DNA of 64,000 nucleotides, from assembly GCF_013283795.1 (NCBI RefSeq), contig NZ_JABSOD010000004.1, positions 186,001-250,000 of the forward strand. The letters are read 5' to 3'. Below, one piece after another: positions 8,544-30,101 of this stretch. Source of the DNA: Rheinheimera lutimaris (GTDB lineage: Bacteria > Pseudomonadota > Gammaproteobacteria > Enterobacterales > Alteromonadaceae). Each line of letters starts with the position of its first letter. Within the stretch, counting starts at the first letter, position 1. The position numbers and the translations under genes are program-made. Below the pieces are notes generated by a model. It was not told where the DNA came from. It ran no database searches and worked only from the letters and a program-made list of their open reading frames with translations.

Positions 8544-10334
8544 CTACTGCGGGGTAATGTTACCGCCGGTATTACGCTGCAGCCAAAACTCCAGCATGAT
8601 CATTACCCAAATTAGCTCGCCATAGTAGGCTGCATGCCCCTGGCGTTGTTGCATCACAGTCTGGCTGATAAAATCCGGCCGGAAAATATGCCGTTGCGCT
8701 AAACTGTCCAGCTGCGTGCTGGCCAGTTGCTGTAACGGCGGATGCTCTGCCAGCCATTTACCAAACGGCAAACCAAAGCCATGTTTCTTTTTCGCTATGG
8801 TTGCCGGCGGCAAAATCGGGCTTAACGCAAACTTATAAAAATCGCGTAAATTGTGTTTGGTCAGTTTAACCTCCGGCGGCAGTTGCAACGATAAATCAAC
8901 TACCCGCTGGTCCAGCATCGGATAAACCACCTCCACCCCTGCCAACTCGGTCATGCCGTTTACTTTAACTAAATCATTGTCGGCCAGCGTAAATTTCCAG
9001 TCGTTAAATAACATTGCATCGACCGGGCTTACCGCCCCCGCCGCCGCAAAGCGCTGCTGGATCTGGCGTAACGGCGCTGCCGTATCAACAGCCGCGAGAA
9101 ATTCTGCAGTAAACACCTGCTCTGCCGCGTGCTGATGCAAAAAATTATAGCGCTGCAAGCGGCTGGCTAAATCCAGTTCGCTTTGCTCAATAAAGCTGCG
9201 GGCTTTTTGCGTTAAACGATGTGGTATCAGCTGAGCGCCTAACTTAACACCGGCCGCTAACATACGGCGTAAAAATAATGGTGACTGACAAAAGCGTTCG
9301 AAAATCATTTGTTTAGCGTAACGCTCATTACCGGAAAACAACTCATCACCGCCGTCACCGGCCAGCATTACATCAACGCCCTGCTGCTTCGCCAACCTGG
9401 CACAAAAATAGGTTGGTAACGCAGACGAGTTACCAAACGGCTGCTGATAATATGCAGCGATTTGCGGCAACTGCTGCGCTATGTCATCCGGGGTGACGTA
9501 ATAGACATAGTGCTCGGTATTAAAAGCGTCAGCGACCACTTTCGCGTAAGCCGTTTCATCGTAGCCCGGCTCCGAAAAACCAATGGTAAAGGTTTTTACC
9601 GGCAGCTTACTTTGCTTTGCCAAACAAGCCACGACTGACGAGCTGTCCAGCCCACCACTGAGAAAACAACCGGCGGCCGGTTGGTCGCGATATGCTGCTG
9701 TAGCCTGCATTAATGCGCGGCGCAACTGCTCTGCCAGCGCAACTTTAGTGCTGTTAAGTTTGCCGGCAAATTGCGGTTGCCAATACACGTTAGTCAGTGC
9801 CGGTTGCTCAGGCGATAAGCTAAGCTGACTTGCCGGTTCCAGCTTATAAATATCTTGCCTTACGGTTGCCGGCCCGGGAATGGTATGAAAGTAGAAATAA
9901 TCAAATAAGCTCTGCGCGGCATAAGGTTGCTGTGAACTCACGGTATTTAACATGGTTCCGAGGCGATATTCGCTGTCGTTGGACTGATAAAACAACGCCA
10001 GAGCGGCAAATTTATCAGTATAAGCCTGCAAACAACCGCCAGGACGATGAAAGACTACCAGGGCAAACCGGCCTGACAGACCGCATAGCTGCTGTTGCAG
10101 CAAAGTGGCATCACGGTAGTGTAATTGTGCCGCGTTAAGCCGCTCACCCTCGCGGTTTTGGCAGCGGCCTGACAGCAACACCAGATAATCATCATTCAGC
10201 AGTACGTCAGTTCCTGCTCGCGACCAACTGCTGAAATCAGTCTGTGAGTTAATTAATTGCGCTGTATCGGTGCCGGGCATGAGAATGCTTAACTGCTGAT
10301 CTGCTTTGTTAAACACCAGAGTATAGTTATCCAT
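8544..10334 (-). CDS. Asparagine synthase (AsnB-like) homologue lacking the N-terminal catalytic Cys
   Basis: The 596-residue protein has a degenerate class II glutaminase-like N-terminal domain (GLSGRFALVVF near residue 94) and a complete synthetase domain with FLSGGLDSSSV near 227 and AGDGGDELFSG near 327. The mature N-terminus is MDNYTLVF: position 2 is Asp, not the Cys needed to hydrolyse glutamine. A TTG at 10343 would give MTLMDNY, also without Cys2. The ATG at 10334 is preferred because an AGGGA lies about 12 nt upstream. AsnB homologues are a recurrent part of exosortase-A loci. A Cys-less N-domain resembles beta-lactam synthetase-type relatives, which adenylate a carboxylate for intramolecular or ammonia-dependent amide formation; that comparison is inference. 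It is divergent from the TPR protein gene at 10475. Confidence 0.85.
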   Translation of the reverse strand: MDNYTLVFNKADQQLSILMPGTDTAQLINSQTDFSSWSRAGTDVLLNDDYLVLLSGRCQNREGERLNAAQLHYRDATLLQQQLCGLSGRFALVVFHRPGGCLQAYTDKFAALALFYQSNDSEYRLGTMLNTVSSQQPYAAQSLFDYFYFHTIPGPATVRQDIYKLEPASQLSLSPEQPALTNVYWQPQFAGKLNSTKVALAEQLRRALMQATAAYRDQPAAGCFLSGGLDSSSVVACLAKQSKLPVKTFTIGFSEPGYDETAYAKVVADAFNTEHYVYYVTPDDIAQQLPQIAAYYQQPFGNSSALPTYFCARLAKQQGVDVMLAGDGGDELFSGNERYAKQMIFERFCQSPLFLRRMLAAGVKLGAQLIPHRLTQKARSFIEQSELDLASRLQRYNFLHQHAAEQVFTAEFLAAVDTAAPLRQIQQRFAAAGAVSPVDAMLFNDWKFTLADNDLVKVNGMTELAGVEVVYPMLDQRVVDLSLQLPPEVKLTKHNLRDFYKFALSPILPPATIAKKKHGFGLPFGKWLAEHPPLQQLASTQLDSLAQRHIFRPDFISQTVMQQRQGHAAYYGELIWVMIMLEFWLQRNTGGNITPQ

Positions 10335-10400
10335 CAACGTCAAAAATCCCTTTATTCGTTAACTATCTTTGCCTGATTACTATACCAGCATAACAAAACC

Positions 10401-23293: not shown

Positions 23294-26053
23294 ATGAAAA
23301 AGACAACCATATTAGCCAGTGCTGTAGCACTGGCTTTACTCAGCGGTTGTGGCAGTAAGGATGCAACAGAGCACTATAGCGACGCACTGAATTATATCGA
23401 TGCTAAGCAATACAATGCTGCAGTAATTGAATTAAAATCTGCTATTCAACAAATGCCGGACAATGCCGACTACCGTTTTGCCCTGGGCAAACTTTATCTG
23501 CAAACCGGCGATGCAATATCGGCTGAAAAAGAGTTGCTGCTGGCCAAAGCCGGTGGCATTGATACTGACGCCGTTACGCTGCCGTTACTGCGGGCCAGCT
23601 ATTTAGCCGGCAATTATTCAGCAATATTATCACGCCACCCTGACGATGAAACCTTACCGGCATCGTTGCAAGATTACGTGCAGCTTTATAAAGCGTTATC
23701 AGAGCTCGAGTTAGGCTCTGCTGAGAACTCTCTGCGTATATTTTCCGACCTTGCAGACAGTGATAAAGCCGGTGTTGCCGCTTTTTCCCAAGCTAATTTA
23801 TTGATCCCTGAGGCTAAATATCAGGATGCTTATGACTTGTTGGCGGCCATATCCACAGACCAGCCGCATTTTGAAGAAACATTGTATCTGAAAGCAAACC
23901 TGCTGCTGGCACTGGAAAAAAATACCGAAGCATCCGCCGCTTTGCTGGAGTACTTAAAACTACAACCGCGGCAATTAAAAGCCAGGCTGCAAGCTGCGCA
24001 GATCTTGGTTAAGCTTGAGCAATACCCGGCTGCGCAAGCACAGTTAGATGTCATTTTGAAAACTGCGCCGGAGCAGCCTTTTGCTAATTATCTGGCAGCC
24101 GTAACAGCGTTAGAAGCAGAAAACTATACTGCAGCAAAAGAGTTTGCTGACAAAGCCATCGCTAAGGGCTACCGCACTCCGCAGGCGCGGATCCTTGCCG
24201 CAGTTGCCTCAATACGGCTCGGGCTGGAAAGCCAGGCGTTACATCATCTGGCAGCAGCAGAGCAGCATCTGGGCGCTTATCCGCAACTGGAGCGGCTTTA
24301 TATCGCCCTGCAGTTAAAAGAAAGCAAAACCGCTGACGCGCAAAAACAACTGCTTGATATGAATATGACTGACAGTGATATTCAACTTGTAGCCGGCACA
24401 GCATTAAACCTGGTTAAACAAGGTAACACTGCAGCAGCACGCGAGTTGGTATCAAAATACGAAAGTAGTATGTCAGGTGAAGCACAAAGCCTCAGCTCGC
24501 TGGGTCAGCTAAAAATGTCTATCCCGGGCGAAGAACTGGCCGCTATCGAAGATTTAGAGCGTGCCCTGTCACTGGATCCCGGCATGCACAGCACCCGACT
24601 GGTGTTAGCGGCAAACTATCTGAAAAACAAGCAATTTAGCAAGGTTGATGAGTTAGCCCAAGAATGGTTAGACGACCCGGATACCGCTAATTTGGGTTAT
24701 AACCTCAAAGCTTACAGCGCTTTATTACAAAAAGACGTTGAAACCGCCAAGACACTGTTAGCCAGCGCTGCCGAAACCGCAGCGGATAATCCGTTGACCT
24801 TACTGCTGCAGGCTACAGTGGCACAGTTTGAAAAAGACTACACCTTAGCTGCGCAGTTAAACAGTAAATTGTTGCAGGCCAAACCAAGCTATTTACCGGC
24901 TTTACGCCAAGCCTATGCCTTAGCACGACAAAACAATAATACTACTGCAATATTGGCTACCGCCCGTGATACACAAAAAAATGAGCCGGATAATTACTTA
25001 CTGCGTTTAACCGTTGCGCGGTTGTTTCAATTAGATGGCAAGGCAAACGATGTAATCGCTTTACTGGATAAGGTGCCGGCAGATAGCAGCCAGCGCCTGC
25101 CGGCACATTGGACCATGTTAATTGAAGCTAATGTTAATCTGAATAAAGTTGCTGATGCACTGCGTCTGAGTAAAAGCTGGCACGAGCAAGACCCCACCGC
25201 ATTTCAGGCGGCCACCATATATGCCAATTTATTGCTAAGACAAGATAACCCGCAAGAAGCGCTAAGGGTAATACAGTTGCAGCAAAGCCGCTATCCGGAC
25301 AATGTTCAGCTCAGAATGGCGCAGGTATCTGCCCTGGAGGCTTTGCAACAGTACGGCGCAGCTATCGATGCCATAGCCAAACTACCGGAAAAAATACGTG
25401 ATAACGCCTATAATCTGGCGCTGAAAGGACGCCTGCTGTTGTTGCAAAATAAACCAACACCGGCACTGGAAGCCTTGCTGCAAAGCTACGATATGCAACC
25501 GGCTAACTCTACCGCTACTGTAATTGCTGATTTATATGCCAAAGAATATTCATTTCGCCGCAGCATTGAATTTATTGAAAAGCATATGCAAAACCATGAA
25601 CCATCACAGATGATGCAGTCTTACTACGCGAATCTGTTAATGCAGTCTGATCCGCAAAAAGCACAGCAAATCTACGCCTCTTTGGCAGAATCGCAGGCAG
25701 AAAATTTTATCTTCCTGAATAACTATGCCTGGTTGTTACTAAACGACAATAAGCCGGCAGAAGCAGAGCAGTTCGCGAAAAAGGCATTAGCACTGGCCCC
25801 GGAAAACCCCGATGTTATTGACACCTATGGCTCAACCCTAATGCGTCTTAACAAGGCTGATGCCGCTATAACGCAATTTGAAAAGTCGTTAAAACTAAGG
25901 CCAGGTAGCAGCGAAGTTCAGCTTAACTATGCAGAGGCTCTGCTAATGGCCGGCAAAACGGCAGAAGCAAGCAATGTCTTACAGCAGGTAAAATCAGACG
26001 ACCGAAAAATTAGCCAACGCCTTACTGAATTACAAGCCAAAGTCGCTCAGTAA
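23294..26053 (+). CDS. prsT: PrsT, XrtA/PEP-CTERM system TPR-repeat lipoprotein
   Basis: The 919-residue protein has a lipoprotein signal (LLSGCG, Cys19 as lipid anchor) followed by about 20 TPR-like helix pairs to the C-terminus. Length, lipobox and repeat content match the PrsT family, which occurs in nearly all exosortase-A genomes next to the sensor kinase PrsK and regulator PrsR. It probably acts as a periplasmic or outer-membrane scaffold for polymer export, as BcsC/PelB-like TPR proteins do; that role is inferred. GGGAG lies upstream of the ATG at 23294. A strong terminator follows its stop. Confidence 0.95.
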   Translation: MKKTTILASAVALALLSGCGSKDATEHYSDALNYIDAKQYNAAVIELKSAIQQMPDNADYRFALGKLYLQTGDAISAEKELLLAKAGGIDTDAVTLPLLRASYLAGNYSAILSRHPDDETLPASLQDYVQLYKALSELELGSAENSLRIFSDLADSDKAGVAAFSQANLLIPEAKYQDAYDLLAAISTDQPHFEETLYLKANLLLALEKNTEASAALLEYLKLQPRQLKARLQAAQILVKLEQYPAAQAQLDVILKTAPEQPFANYLAAVTALEAENYTAAKEFADKAIAKGYRTPQARILAAVASIRLGLESQALHHLAAAEQHLGAYPQLERLYIALQLKESKTADAQKQLLDMNMTDSDIQLVAGTALNLVKQGNTAAARELVSKYESSMSGEAQSLSSLGQLKMSIPGEELAAIEDLERALSLDPGMHSTRLVLAANYLKNKQFSKVDELAQEWLDDPDTANLGYNLKAYSALLQKDVETAKTLLASAAETAADNPLTLLLQATVAQFEKDYTLAAQLNSKLLQAKPSYLPALRQAYALARQNNNTTAILATARDTQKNEPDNYLLRLTVARLFQLDGKANDVIALLDKVPADSSQRLPAHWTMLIEANVNLNKVADALRLSKSWHEQDPTAFQAATIYANLLLRQDNPQEALRVIQLQQSRYPDNVQLRMAQVSALEALQQYGAAIDAIAKLPEKIRDNAYNLALKGRLLLLQNKPTPALEALLQSYDMQPANSTATVIADLYAKEYSFRRSIEFIEKHMQNHEPSQMMQSYYANLLMQSDPQKAQQIYASLAESQAENFIFLNNYAWLLLNDNKPAEAEQFAKKALALAPENPDVIDTYGSTLMRLNKADAAITQFEKSLKLRPGSSEVQLNYAEALLMAGKTAEASNVLQQVKSDDRKISQRLTELQAKVAQ

Positions 26054-26172: not shown

Positions 26173-27039
26173 TTAAGCGGCTTTACGTCTGCGGGCAGTA
26201 GCACCTAAGCCTAATAAACCCAAACCTAAGATAGCAATAGACGCCGGCTCTGGTACTGCGAAGATACCGGTTGCGTTGATATCGGTCTCACGGCTTAAGG
26301 TCTCACAATCTGCATCATCACAGGTTGGCACAAAGTTAAAGTCAACGTTAAAGTCCATGCGGAAATTAATCACCGGTGGTGGCGCTAACTGACTTAACTG
26401 GTAAAACGACATACCTGAATCGCCATCAGTAAAAAAGTTATCAACAAAGGCGTTACCACCGGCATACCAATCATAATTTACTTCCATAAAGAAGATTACG
26501 TTTGGTGAAAAAGGTTGTAACTCAGTACCGACCAGCCGCAGTTCTAACACTTTTTGACCATCGTTAGGACTGGCGTCGTTTATATCGTTATAGAAAATTT
26601 CTAAAATGCCGGTAGTAAAGTTAGGTACTATCGCATCGCCGAAATCAACTAAACCGTCATTATTAGCATCTAAGGTGCCGTCTGGCGCAAATGGGAACAC
26701 ACCATCAACCAGCGTCGCAGTGCCACCAAAGTTATAGTTAAAACCCAATTGCCAGTTATTATTGTAACCCAATGAGTTACCGCCAAAAATAGGCACTAAT
26801 TCACCAAACCAACCACCTCCGACATCATTAAAGCTAAGCGGCGCGCCAATAAGGTCATCTGCACCACCCACTGCTCCGGGCCCTAAACCATGGCTGTAAG
26901 TTGAGGTTACCGGAATATTGCTGGCACCCAGCGCTTCGAATAAACCTGTAGTACCGTAATCGTTAGTAATGCTGATATCCCCTGCCTGAGCTGCGCCGGC
27001 AGCGCCGAGTAAGGCGGCAGCTAAAAGAATCTTTTTCAT
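26173..27039 (-). CDS. PEP-CTERM surface/secreted protein, paralogue A
   Basis: The 288-residue product has a Sec signal (MKKILLAAALLGAAGAAQA), a Gly/Asn/Phe-rich beta-type body of unrecognised family, and a textbook PEP-CTERM tail: AVPEPAS near residue 262, a hydrophobic helix ILGLGLLGLGA, then RRRKAA. Exosortase A is expected to cleave the tail after export. An EF-hand-like calcium loop DANNDGLVDFGD lies near residue 121. Three Cys residues (two near CDDADCE) lie late in the protein. A GGAG lies 8 nt upstream of the ATG. A sigma-54 promoter lies 48 bp upstream of the start codon. It is close to paralogue B at 27329 over its whole length. Confidence 0.93.
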   Translation of the reverse strand: MKKILLAAALLGAAGAAQAGDISITNDYGTTGLFEALGASNIPVTSTYSHGLGPGAVGGADDLIGAPLSFNDVGGGWFGELVPIFGGNSLGYNNNWQLGFNYNFGGTATLVDGVFPFAPDGTLDANNDGLVDFGDAIVPNFTTGILEIFYNDINDASPNDGQKVLELRLVGTELQPFSPNVIFFMEVNYDWYAGGNAFVDNFFTDGDSGMSFYQLSQLAPPPVINFRMDFNVDFNFVPTCDDADCETLSRETDINATGIFAVPEPASIAILGLGLLGLGATARRRKAA

Positions 27040-27086
27040 AGTAACTCCTTGTTAAACTCTGTAGTCATATACACCAGCTTTAACAA

Positions 27087-27102
27087 AGCAATCAACATGC
27101 CA
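27087..27102 (-). promoter_or_regulatory. Sigma-54 (-24/-12) promoter of PEP-CTERM gene A
   Basis: Read on the minus strand, the site is TGGCATG-N4-TTGCT, an excellent match to the RpoN consensus TGGCACG-N4-TTGCW with the required GG-N10-GC spacing. It gives a leader of about 35 nt. RpoN with the PrsK/PrsR two-component system is known to control PEP-CTERM genes in other bacteria. Confidence 0.85.
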
Positions 27103-27246
27103 TAATAATTTAACTTTACATTTCAACATTTTAAAAAAAAATACTCGCAACAAAAGCCGAAACTGATAAAAAAGCTGACAGAAATGTCTATAAAAAACAG
27201 TAAAAAAAATGGCTAATTGACATATCAAGAGCCTGAGATAACCAAC

Positions 27247-27288
27247 CTGCCAGCCGGCACAGTTTTAATAAACCATGCCAGCTGTCAG
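27247..27288 (-). terminator. Large hairpin after PEP-CTERM gene B
   Basis: Arms 27247-27262 and 27273-27288 pair over 16 positions with one mismatch and three G-T pairs; the loop is 10 nt of A/T. It starts 40 bp after the stop of PEP-CTERM gene B on the minus strand. The U-run is weak in that direction (the T-rich side faces the plus strand), so it may be an RNA-stabilising 3' end or a plus-strand terminator instead. Confidence 0.5.
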
Positions 27289-27328
27289 TTTGTTGTTTTT
27301 TGCAGTTCTGGTTATCCGGATTAAAACG

Positions 27329-28210
27329 CTAACTAATTTCGTTTCGGCCATTCCTCCGGCGAGAACTAAACCCCAGCCCCAACAACCCAAAACCCAACAT
27401 AGCCAGAGAAGCCGGCTCCGGTACAGCAAAAATGCCGGTCGCATTGATATCTGTGGTACGACTGATTGTTTCACAGACAGCATCACCACAAGTTGGTACA
27501 CGATTAAAGTCTACATTAAAGTCAAGGCGGAAACTGATAACCGGTGGGGGGCTGAGCTGGCTTAATTGATAAAATGACAGTCCTGAGTCACCGTCAGTGA
27601 AGAAGTTGTCAACAAACGCATTACCACCAGCATACCAGTCGTAATTGACTTCCAGAAAAAAAATCACATTGGGCGAGAATGGCTGCAGCTCAGTTCCAAC
27701 TAATTGCAATTCTAATACTTTAACACCTTGGTTTGGGTTGCCCGGCGTCGCTAAGTCGTTATAAAAGAACTCCAGCACCCCCGTAGTATAGTTAGGAACT
27801 AAAGCGTCACCGAAATCAATTAAACCGTCGTTATTAGCATCCAAAGTCCCATCAGGTGCAAACGGGAATACACCGTCGTCATAGGTGGCAGTGCCACCAA
27901 AGTTATAGTTGAATCCCAACTGCCAATCGTTATTGTAATTCAACGAATTGCCGCCAAAAATAGGCACCAACTCACCGAACCAGCCACTGCCCACATCATT
28001 GAAAGCTAATGGTACGCCAATCACATCATCTGCACTACTTACCACACCATTTCCCAAGCCATGGCTGTAAGTTGATGTTACCGGGATATTGCTGGCACCC
28101 AGCGCTTCAAATAACCCTGTAGTGCCATAATTATTGGTAATACTGATATCTCCTGCCTGAGCGGTTCCACCAACGCCGAATAAAGCGACAGCTAAAAAAA
28201 GTCTTTTCAT
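27329..28210 (-). CDS. PEP-CTERM surface/secreted protein, paralogue B
   Basis: The 293-residue product begins MKRLFLAVALFGVGGTAQA (signal peptide) and ends with AVPEPASLAMLGFGLLGLGF and a basic tail RRRNGRNEIS, so it is a second PEP-CTERM substrate. Over nearly the whole body it is the same as paralogue A, including the calcium-loop DANNDGLIDFGD. It differs by a five- to seven-residue region near LATPGNPNQG, the tail and scattered substitutions. The start at 28210 was chosen because GGGAG precedes it and the signal peptide fits; an upstream frame to 28261 reads through the leader. A sigma-54 promoter lies 47 bp upstream. Confidence 0.93.
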   Translation of the reverse strand: MKRLFLAVALFGVGGTAQAGDISITNNYGTTGLFEALGASNIPVTSTYSHGLGNGVVSSADDVIGVPLAFNDVGSGWFGELVPIFGGNSLNYNNDWQLGFNYNFGGTATYDDGVFPFAPDGTLDANNDGLIDFGDALVPNYTTGVLEFFYNDLATPGNPNQGVKVLELQLVGTELQPFSPNVIFFLEVNYDWYAGGNAFVDNFFTDGDSGLSFYQLSQLSPPPVISFRLDFNVDFNRVPTCGDAVCETISRTTDINATGIFAVPEPASLAMLGFGLLGLGFSSRRRNGRNEIS

Positions 28211-28256
28211 AGTAACTCCCTGTAAACTCTGTGGCCCGATGCCACAGCGCCCACAA

Positions 28257-28272
28257 AGCAATCACCATGCCA
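28257..28272 (-). promoter_or_regulatory. Sigma-54 (-24/-12) promoter of PEP-CTERM gene B
   Basis: On the minus strand the site is TTGGCATG-N4-TTGCT, again with GG-N10-GC spacing. It matches the promoter of paralogue A base for base except in the spacer and flanks, and the distance to the start codon is one base less. The duplication therefore carried the promoter. Confidence 0.87.
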
Positions 28273-28351
28273 AAATAAATTACCATTTAATTTCAAAAAC
28301 ATAACAACAACCGGCAAACCATAGAGTAAATAAATGATTAGAAAACTGACA

Positions 28352-29203
28352 CTAATTACTAACAATTTTCTTTGCGATTCTAAACATCAACCTGGGTATC
28401 AAGCCGGCATTGCCAAAGGGGCGCCAGGTTTTTACCAACTTGTTGCGATAGGCATCAAAATGCAGGCCGTATGGCGCGCACAACACATCGCCTCTGCCCA
28501 GCAATATTTTCAGCACATAAGTACCGGCAATACCGGCGCACAATTGCACCGCCATCGGTGTAGAGGGGCCACGTTGCTGCTTAAAGCTTACGCGGCTTTG
28601 ATCGACCAGGTAACTGCGCTGCAACATCGCCGGAGACAGCCCGATAAGAAACTGGATCAATTGATCTTCTTTACTATGGCCGGCAAAACGAAAGTACTGC
28701 TCATAGCTCATAGCGCCCGGCATAAAGCATAAAAAAGCGCAGCCCATACCTAAGGGCGCAGCAGTAACCACCGGAATACGTTTTTCGTGGCATTTCTGAA
28801 ACACCAACTGGCGGGCTTCTAAGGCAAAAAAGTCGAGGCTGTCGACATAGATATCCACATCCTGTAAAAAAGCATCGACATTGTCTGCATTAATACCTTG
28901 CTCAAAACAGCTGATTTCAGCTTCAGGATTAATATCCCTTACCATGCGCTGCATTACCGTCACTTTGTCCTGTTGCACAGTAGACATAAAAGCGCCTACC
29001 TGACGGTTAAAATTATGCACTTCAAACTGATCAAAGTCAGATAAACGAAATTTACCGATACCAAGCCTGGCAAGGGTTAACGCATGCGCACCGCCTACGC
29101 CGCCGGCCCCCGCTATTGCTACCGTAAAATTACGCAACTTTTGCTGTTCGGCCAGCGTTACCCAGCCTATATTGCGCGAAAACGCAGCGTTGTAGTCAAA
29201 CAT
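28352..29203 (-). CDS. ThiF/MoeB/E1-like adenylyltransferase
   Basis: The 283-residue protein starts MFDYNAAFSRNIGWV and has the E1-like nucleotide-binding glycine motif AGAGGVGGAHALTLARLG near residue 31, then LSDFDQFEVHNFNRQ near 54. These are the ThiF family's ATP-site residues. The catalytic and Zn-binding Cys pairs of ThiF/MoeB were not found, so the class is probably a non-canonical ThiF-like adenylyltransferase. It lies 34 bp after the acyltransferase on the same strand. The ATG at 29203 has AGGGA 8 nt upstream; an ATG at 29209 would be too close. Role inferred: activates a C-terminal or carboxylate group in an acyl or peptide modification. Confidence 0.85.
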   Translation of the reverse strand: MFDYNAAFSRNIGWVTLAEQQKLRNFTVAIAGAGGVGGAHALTLARLGIGKFRLSDFDQFEVHNFNRQVGAFMSTVQQDKVTVMQRMVRDINPEAEISCFEQGINADNVDAFLQDVDIYVDSLDFFALEARQLVFQKCHEKRIPVVTAAPLGMGCAFLCFMPGAMSYEQYFRFAGHSKEDQLIQFLIGLSPAMLQRSYLVDQSRVSFKQQRGPSTPMAVQLCAGIAGTYVLKILLGRGDVLCAPYGLHFDAYRNKLVKTWRPFGNAGLIPRLMFRIAKKIVSN

Positions 29204-29237
29204 GGCCATAATCCCTATGTATGTTTCAGCGTTAGCG

Positions 29238-30101
29238 CTAATGAGCGGCAATAAGTTTAGGTGAGAATATTGCTCCGGACGAGGGTGTACCAGGTTTTTT
29301 TAATTCAAACAAGTCTCGCTCTATTGCTTGCAGCAACTTCAGATAACCGCTACTGAGGGTTTTTTTCAGTTCTCTGGAGTCGATATAGTATGCCGCCCTT
29401 TTACCATGAAACTCTATCGGTTGGCCCAGTTGACGAAACATAATGCCAACAAAACTCAAACTGCGCGCCAAACGTGGCTCCATCATAACAAACACATGAT
29501 AACGCTTGGTTTTATACGACATAGCCGCAGCAGATAAATACAAACAAACAGCAATGTAAGGAAAACAGCGCAGCTCAGTTTGCGAGAATACCTGCTCGTT
29601 AATTGCGCCGGTTGCTGCGCCGGCGTGCTTGTCTATTTCACGCTTTCTGAATGCTGCCGGCACCGCCAGCCTGGAGATCTCACACACTTCATGTCGGGCA
29701 TATTTCATCGGTGAAATATCGGCATCAGTTAAGGCATGAGAGCAAAACTGCTCTATCGGCAACAGCTCGTTATCCTGCGCTGAGGTAATTAAGCGCACTG
29801 TGCCGGCGAGGTTATTGGAGCTGATATGGCGGACAAAACAGTGAATCGCCCTCAGATCAAATTCATCATGCTCTTCATAGGTTTCTTTTACGTCTTCAAA
29901 ATGCAGTTCTTCGCAATATACATTGTGACGCAGCTTATACACTTCGTGCCGTAACGCATCGGTGTCGGCAATTTGAGGTTTCAGGTACTGCGAAAAGTGC
30001 TCTGAAATCGCTTTGGCGTCGTTACTTGCCAGCGACGCCATGGCTTTTTTCACTACACCACCAATAATAGGCTTGTCTGCCAGCGCTTTTAAACGTTTCA
30101 T
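29238..30101 (-). CDS. PEP-CTERM/exosortase system-associated acyltransferase
   Basis: The 287-residue product has the acyl-homoserine-lactone-synthase-like N-acyltransferase fold: RHEVYKLRHNVYCEELHFED near residue 50, FDLRAIHCFVRH near 82, and CEISRLAVPAAFRKRE near 134. It fits the family found next to exosortase genes. By fold it uses acyl-CoA or acyl-ACP to acylate an amine; its acceptor is not known. It has no signal peptide and should be cytoplasmic. ThiF follows after 34 bp, and the two PEP-CTERM genes lie further on in the same direction, although they have their own promoters. Confidence 0.87.
   Translation of the reverse strand: MKRLKALADKPIIGGVVKKAMASLASNDAKAISEHFSQYLKPQIADTDALRHEVYKLRHNVYCEELHFEDVKETYEEHDEFDLRAIHCFVRHISSNNLAGTVRLITSAQDNELLPIEQFCSHALTDADISPMKYARHEVCEISRLAVPAAFRKREIDKHAGAATGAINEQVFSQTELRCFPYIAVCLYLSAAAMSYKTKRYHVFVMMEPRLARSLSFVGIMFRQLGQPIEFHGKRAAYYIDSRELKKTLSSGYLKLLQAIERDLFELKKPGTPSSGAIFSPKLIAAH

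Follow-up and report, generated by a model that had tools for sequence, protein, structure and literature searches.

We analysed a window of 64,000 nucleotides from Rheinheimera lutimaris (contig NZ_JABSOD010000004.1, positions 186,001 to 250,000) that encodes, on its minus strand, two tandem genes for PEP-CTERM proteins: gene 1 (26173..27039, 288 aa, PepA-like) and gene 2 (27329..28210, 293 aa). Very probably, each is expressed from a PEP-CTERM box at which PrsR, integration host factor (IHF) and sigma-54 act across a helically phased gap, the pair arose by duplication of a gene with its promoter, and the products are sorted by XrtA. The pair adds an example to a regulon already in the literature. 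Of more interest is a rule for phasing and for the place of an IHF-like site, which the comparison of promoter sequences across genomes suggests, which gives the regulon a precise geometry and of which the papers searched contain no report.

Promoter elements of the gene pair

Both products exceed the cut-offs of the PEP-CTERM models, TIGR02595 for the C-terminal segment (23.0 and 23.5 bits, cut-off 16) and PF07589 (27.9 and 28.9 bits, cut-off 20.7), which bears out an earlier description of the locus made from the letters alone (hereafter the sequence-only reading). That reading had also placed TGGCATG-N4-TTGCT before both genes, and the element is indeed there on the minus strand. The sigma-54 -24/-12 sites TGGCATGTTGATTGCT (27087..27102) and TGGCATGGTGATTGCT (28257..28272) are separated by 47 and 46 nt, respectively, from the ATG at 27039 and at 28210. 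Each gene thus has motif 2 of the PEP-CTERM box, a sigma-54 site upstream of a PEP-CTERM gene. From sigma-54 geometry, transcription of gene 1 is predicted to start at 27076 on the minus strand, 12 nt after the C of the -12 element, and that of gene 2 at 28246 on the same strand, leaving 5' untranslated regions (5'UTR) of about 37 and 36 nt.

Two further elements lie upstream and were absent from the sequence-only reading, which had only motif 2. Motif 1, the putative PrsR site, is TGTCAGCTTTTTTATCA for gene 1 (27164..27180, minus strand), with a gap of 61 nt to the sigma-54 site. For gene 2 it is TGTCAGTTTTCTAATCA (28335..28351, minus strand), with a gap of 62 nt; it comes immediately after the stop codon of a ThiF-like gene and lies beyond the segment (26173-28272) that the reading covered. 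The two agree with motif 1, known here by its description and not by its logo, at 12/14 and 10/14 fixed bases. Shuffling of the local sequence gives the motif of gene 1 a chance of 0.00075 at central gaps and 0.0033 at all phased gaps, and that of gene 2 draws its support from being in register with it. Between the motifs, an IHF-like 13-mer starts 31 nt before the sigma-54 site of both genes: TAAAATGTTGAAA for gene 1 (27121..27133, minus strand; 8/9 against YAANNNNTTGATW) and TATGTTTTTGAAA for gene 2 (28291..28303, minus strand; 7/9, weak when taken alone). The position of the 13-mer of gene 1 is common to its relatives.

The genome also encodes the proteins expected with such a box. A PrsR gene (TIGR02915, 689.7 bits, cut-off 502.6, reached by this protein only) adjoins a PrsK gene (TIGR02916, 558.3 bits, cut-off 300) on another contig. 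The prsT gene, for an XrtA/PEP-CTERM TPR protein, is in the window and convergent with gene 1 (23294..26053, plus strand; TIGR02917, 437 bits, cut-off 312.2). The PrsR, PrsK and PrsT complement linked to the box by Haft et al. 2006 is therefore present in full, all over cut-off. An XrtA gene (352.7 bits, cut-off 208) lies on the same contig as the window, around 16 kb before its start, and both window proteins combine a PEP-CTERM segment over cut-off with XrtA in the genome, as XrtA substrates do. The adjacent PrsR and PrsK genes and the upstream PrsR-type motif point to the control by RpoN, PrsK and PrsR that the sequence-only reading had proposed, which is the published model (Haft et al. 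2006).

Classes of gaps between motif 1 and the sigma-54 site

We searched 147 genomes of the family, Alteromonadaceae in the sense of GTDB, with a strict box pattern (TGTCN5TTTTTACA-N{45,75}-TGGCN8TGCW). This revealed 130 matches in 78 genomes and none with the reversed control. The gaps fall into three classes, 49-53 nt (29 matches), 59-64 nt (78) and 70-75 nt (23), and leave 54-58 and 65-69 empty. A search with wider gaps (76-106) yielded 16 matches against one in the control, 11 of them at 82-87, and shorter ones (15-44) gave two, at 19 and 41, with none in the control. The cluster means are 50.8, 62.1 and 72.7 nt, plus 84.8 nt from the wider search; if adjacent clusters are assumed to differ by a single turn, the fit yields a period of 11.19 bp (bootstrap 10.92-11.44), in a statistic that ignores kinship. 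When each of the 78 genomes contributes a single match and three clusters are used, the period is 10.97 and the troughs remain empty. A motif-1 pattern that differs slightly, applied outside the family, found 82 matches in 57 genomes, with clusters at 51.7, 62.9 and 73.2 nt and a period of 10.65 (10.14-11.14). Among 80 named loci, the top-ranking part of 180, 23 of 25 gaps are at 50, 62-64, 72-73 or 82-83, and the other two at 94 and 97; these loci are not independent of the other sets, because the taxa are partly the same.

The boxes accompany PrsR and PEP-CTERM genes. A strict box occurs in 77 of the 118 family genomes encoding PrsR and in one of the 29 lacking it. The open reading frame (ORF) after the box has a PEP-CTERM-like tail, defined as a hydrophobic stretch and a basic end, in 114/130 cases in the family and 43/82 outside, against 4/85 of the ORFs of the window, and 79/130 family boxes pass a stricter P[EA]P test; these counts are rough, because the longest ORF was picked automatically and some run off the stretch. 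A few family boxes are clearly before proteins of another kind.

Separately, downstream of short-class boxes (50-52 nt; L131:706-1401, L133:688-1377, L152:835-1407 and L165:367-996) we observed four proteins with twin-arginine-like starts, none of which matched Pfam or NCBIfam at the thresholds used. They are possible PrsR targets other than PEP-CTERM proteins.

An IHF-like site at two places

The consensus of IHF is the 13-mer WATCAANNNNTTR. The family spacers (129 distinct sequences among 130; 75% A+T) are enriched in it in either orientation, and not in its reversed-order controls. Forward 13-mers cluster at 18-19 nt and reverse ones at 30-32 nt before the sigma-54 site. We fixed the places at 17-20 and 29-33 nt from the family data, the outside set playing no part in the choice. 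A 13-mer of at least 8/9 is found at these places in 70/129 family spacers (control 1), and one of at least 7/9 in 115/129 (control 20). Outside the family, 39/82 reach at least 8/9, where mononucleotide shuffles average 1.1 and never exceed 4 and each of the two control motifs scores 1; 62/82 reach at least 7/9, where shuffles give 8.9, at most 18, and the control motifs score 10 and 12. The place varies with the gap class. Counting 13-mers of at least 7/9, the 51 class has 19 forward and 10 reverse sites among 29 family boxes, and 4 and 4 among 10 outside; the 62 class has 46 reverse and 24 forward of 77, and 21 and 14 of 46 outside; the 73 class has 12 reverse and 1 forward of 23, and 15 and 3 of 26 outside. 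The longest class favours 31 nt, and the shortest, in the family, 18-19 nt. Such regularities suggest that the activator, DNA-bending and promoter sites are set at fixed helical distances.

Variants of this arrangement are found elsewhere in the genome of R. lutimaris. Six ORFs exceed the PEP-CTERM cut-off, i.e. the window pair and four others. A lenient scan gave these four box gaps of 50, 51, 72 and 62; at the expected places their IHF-like sites reach 8/9, 8/9, 9/9 and 8/9, respectively. The sequence-only reading took the pair for the main cargo of the locus; with four more PEP-CTERM genes elsewhere that have variants of the box, this is not established.

Proposed mechanism and alternative explanations

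We propose that each gene of the pair is a single-gene unit under its own PEP-CTERM box. PrsR, which is encoded together with PrsK elsewhere in the genome, would be phosphorylated and bind motif 1 at a distance of 61-62 nt from the -24/-12 site. IHF would bind the AT-rich spacer at the 13-mer that begins 31 nt ahead of the sigma-54 site and bend the DNA, and PrsR would then touch and remodel the sigma-54 RNA polymerase. The gap would have to be a whole number of helical turns, at around 11 bp per turn in the cell, hence the central class of both window gaps (61 and 62). The pair would stem from a tandem duplication of gene and promoter, and XrtA would sort its products, which are presumably secreted. 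We infer the binding of PrsR, IHF and sigma-54, the phosphorylation, the bending and the sorting; our observations comprise the elements and how they are spaced, the finding that they recur in relatives, and the genes for PrsR, PrsK, PrsT and XrtA. More broadly, we think it likely that the switch of PEP-CTERM genes throughout the Gammaproteobacteria is a rigid device with three parts (PrsR site, IHF bend and sigma-54 promoter). In it, PrsR would stay on one face of the helix, turns of about 11 bp would have been gained or lost in evolution, and the IHF site would take one of two places, its first base preceding the sigma-54 site by 18-19 nt in one orientation or by about 31 nt in the other. 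The window pair would be a duplicated, central-class example of this device.

Several observations weigh against these proposals. In the window genes, motif 1 ends in TTATCA and TAATCA instead of TTTACA, and both genes fail the strict box pattern that underlies the spacing rule; the sole strict match in this genome is before a gene on contig C45. The motif 1 of gene 2 is weak alone (shuffling chance 0.023 at central gaps, and 0.09 when every phased gap is allowed) and was missed both by a position weight matrix (PWM) scan and by a pattern search, and the IHF-like site of this gene reaches only 7/9. Of the four PEP-CTERM genes elsewhere in the genome, two are preceded by poor sigma-54 boxes, AGGAACAATTATTGCA and TGGATTGCTTTATGCA. 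No strict match was found in 41 of the 118 family genomes encoding PrsR. The gap classes are not perfectly clean either: 5/16 gaps of the wide search are outside 82-87 (78, 96, 98, 104 and 105), and 10/82 gaps outside the family are at 54-58 or 65-69, 7 of these at 65, beside a peak.

The weak motif 1 of gene 2 could mean that the sigma-54 sites are real and that an enhancer-binding protein other than PrsR drives the pair, motif 1 being degenerate. Besides PrsR itself, eleven stretches of the genome score 262-393 bits with the PrsR model, under its cut-off. We regard this as quite unlikely, since TGTCAG and the gaps of 61 and 62 nt are kept in both copies, a single-copy relative in another genome (locus L214, see below) has TGTCAGCTTTTTTTGCA at a gap of 62, and one protein only attains the PrsR cut-off. 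A chance match to the short sigma-54 consensus is hardly credible. Its frequency in the genome would allow one (the exact TGGCATG-N4-TTGCT has 3 matches in 4.08 Mb against 1 for the reversed control, and the looser TGGCANGN4TTGCW has 8 against 3), but the sites occupy the same place before both genes, two more elements are in register with them, and the same architecture precedes PEP-CTERM genes in many genomes.

The remaining alternatives concern the general rule. Gap classes could reflect something other than helical phasing, e.g. common descent from a small number of promoters that spread as blocks. Related genomes do share promoters and some spacers are near-identical, but the classes hold with one match per genome, with no trough gap in 78 genomes, and recur both outside the family and inside the window genome (50, 51, 61, 62, 62 and 72), which makes this explanation very unlikely. 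It is also unlikely, if less far-fetched, that the 13-mer is an AT-rich part of the footprint of RNA polymerase or of PrsR and not an IHF site. Spacers of 75% A+T and an IHF consensus that is A+T-rich too would fit this idea. So would an observation that counts against our own proposal: in Geobacter (PMC7962754), the exosortase substrate GSU1943 was up around 3-fold in two ihf mutants, not down. On the other hand, reversed-order controls of the same composition stay near or below shuffle level, both IHF orientations are enriched, each at its own place, and IHF between enhancer and promoter is described as common at sigma-54 promoters in the literature accessible to us.

Probable duplication of a gene with its promoter

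The two proteins are identical at 235 of 288 aligned residues (82%). The divergence between the copies is high at silent sites (dS of 1.1 with YN00 and 2.9 with NG86) and low at replacement sites (dN of 0.14 and 0.12, respectively), which suggests an old duplication with purifying selection on both copies. The sequence-only reading held that the sigma-54 element was kept and that the rest of the leader had drifted. The comparison of the copies agrees on the sigma-54 site (15/16 identical) and on the drift of the upper spacer (18/34) and of the start of the 5'UTR (11/20). The claim does not extend to the whole leader, because the last 27 nt of the 5'UTR (27040-27066 and 28211-28237; 23/28 in a gapped alignment) and motif 1 (14/17) are also kept. 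Between gene 1 and its relative in L214, this end of the 5'UTR is identical at 26/27 positions and the sigma-54 site at only 11/16. This end of the 5'UTR is possibly more than a ribosome-binding site.

The gene 1 protein found matches in 5 of the 147 family genomes, the window genome included, and this is the only one of the five with two copies. Upstream of the relatives in the other four we found TGTC-N7-TTTACA in three and TGTC-N7-TTAACA in the fourth, a partial protein match, followed by a sigma-54-like site at gaps of 72, 72, 82 and 84 nt. The five other genomes of the genus that we examined all encode PrsR and have no relative at E 1e-10. A search for related loci with gene 1 as query found no relative. 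A ThiF gene followed by one pepA-like gene occurs in two Alkalimonas loci and in L214, from a metagenome-assembled genome. The L214 protein, the closest relative found outside the window genome (65% identical to that of gene 1), is single-copy in the retrieved locus. Its motif 1 is 62 nt from TGGTACGCTCTTTGCT, a sigma-54 site that we placed by eye and that has no strict TGGC, and an 8/9 IHF-like site starts 31 nt before it. Motif 1, the IHF-like site, the sigma-54 site and the end of the 5'UTR in both copies, together with this single-copy relative, support the proposal that the gene was duplicated with its promoter.

In several relatives, two to three PrsR-type boxes occur around 1 kb apart on one strand: L125-L127 (G025:C2), L223, L235, L222, L217 and L163-L164 (G055:C423). 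Tandem arrays of gene plus box look recurrent among relatives.

Other sites and neighbouring genes

According to the sequence-only reading, genes 1 and 2 are alone in the window in having such a sigma-54 site. This stands for the window, where a count of the two motifs passes only before genes 1 and 2 (a stricter PWM scan passes gene 1 alone), and fails for the genome at large. The third exact TGGCATGN4TTGCT (L003:1501-1516, i.e. G000:C49:25788-25803) is 57 nt before a gene for a small DUF3192 lipoprotein (PF11399). We rejected it as a PrsR target: its best motif 1 has 9/14 fixed bases and is out of phase at 91 nt. It may belong to a sigma-54 gene that is under another activator and has no in-phase PrsR motif. 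The PWM scan, which covered six stretches of the genome, gave two more candidates that we dropped. One, on contig C3, is before a 1033-aa gene without a PEP-CTERM tail and has a weak sigma-54 site and no IHF-like site; the coordinates of the other, on C45, are inside the second PEP-CTERM gene there. Both are in phase, but so would be roughly every second chance hit (the phased gaps make up 21 of the 45 scanned).

Upstream of gene 2, on the minus strand, are genes for a ThiF/E1-like adenylyltransferase (28352..29251; NF006077, 421.5 bits, cut-off 266) and a PEP-CTERM/exosortase-associated acyltransferase (29238..30101; TIGR03694, 223.4 bits, cut-off 111.95). Of the 80 named loci, which were retrieved via the ThiF gene, 48 contain a relative of the latter. 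The window also encodes an asparagine synthase-like protein (8544-10343) whose score with the XrtA-associated amidotransferase model TIGR03108 (248.7 bits) is far under the cut-off of 816.9. Membership of the pair in PepA (NF033554, floc_PepA) was rejected: the products of genes 1 and 2 cover most of the model, at 43.8 and 39.3 bits for a cut-off of 80.

Comparison with known systems

In Haft et al. 2006 (PMC1569441), 99 of the 167 PEP-CTERM genes from proteobacteria are preceded by motif 1, a spacer and the sigma-54 motif 2, a box that the authors connected with PrsR, PrsK and PrsT. The window genes resemble this description, with a degenerate 17-nt motif 1, a spacer and a 17-nt motif 2 before a single PEP-CTERM gene, and with PrsR, PrsK, PrsT and an exosortase in the genome. 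The published spacer has a mean of 62.8 nt (s.d. 10.6, range 32-92), close to the 61 and 62 nt seen here. The difference is that it was given as a mean and standard deviation, whereas we find discrete classes and an IHF-like site; the accessible text of that paper has nothing relevant on helical phasing, looping, bending or a host factor. In Aquincola tertiaricarbonis RN12, pepA depends on RpoN1 and its start was mapped in 2023, with TGGCAC and CTGCTT as -24/-12 elements (PMC9850573). There, as here, a PEP-CTERM gene with a -24/-12 promoter (mapped there, predicted here) is beside prsT. Judging from the portion of the paper at hand, Aquincola has one pepA with prsT downstream, whereas the window has two copies with prsT convergent and its proteins are under the PepA cut-off. 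Because of these two reports, the mechanism of the sequence-only reading counts as already published.

The order proposed here, with enhancer-binding site, IHF-type site and -24/-12 site, is also that of the orp operons of Desulfovibrio, whose activator and genes are different; phased spacing across genomes is not described in the sections of that paper available to us (PMC3897727). Loops at lac depend on helical phase in vivo with a repeat near 11 bp (PMC8501960), similar to our estimate. According to the available part of that source, they concern engineered repression with operators around 133-144 bp apart, and ours are natural promoters with gaps of mostly 50-85 nt. In the open-access literature searched, which covered the broader work on sigma-54 and phasing in part, we found neither the phasing rule nor the IHF rule for PEP-CTERM boxes, nor any report of PEP-CTERM together with IHF. 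What we had of the main text of a 2025 paper on sigma-54 regulons mentions none of PEP-CTERM, exosortase, PrsR or IHF.

The spacing rule helps to predict PrsR-controlled genes, including those of this genome with weak sigma-54 boxes, and IHF is a likely third player in the regulon. The natural promoters of 135 genomes (78 of the family and 57 outside) are a possible read-out of the helical repeat in vivo. If the three-part device is as we propose, natural promoters would record the supercoiled helical repeat of living cells.

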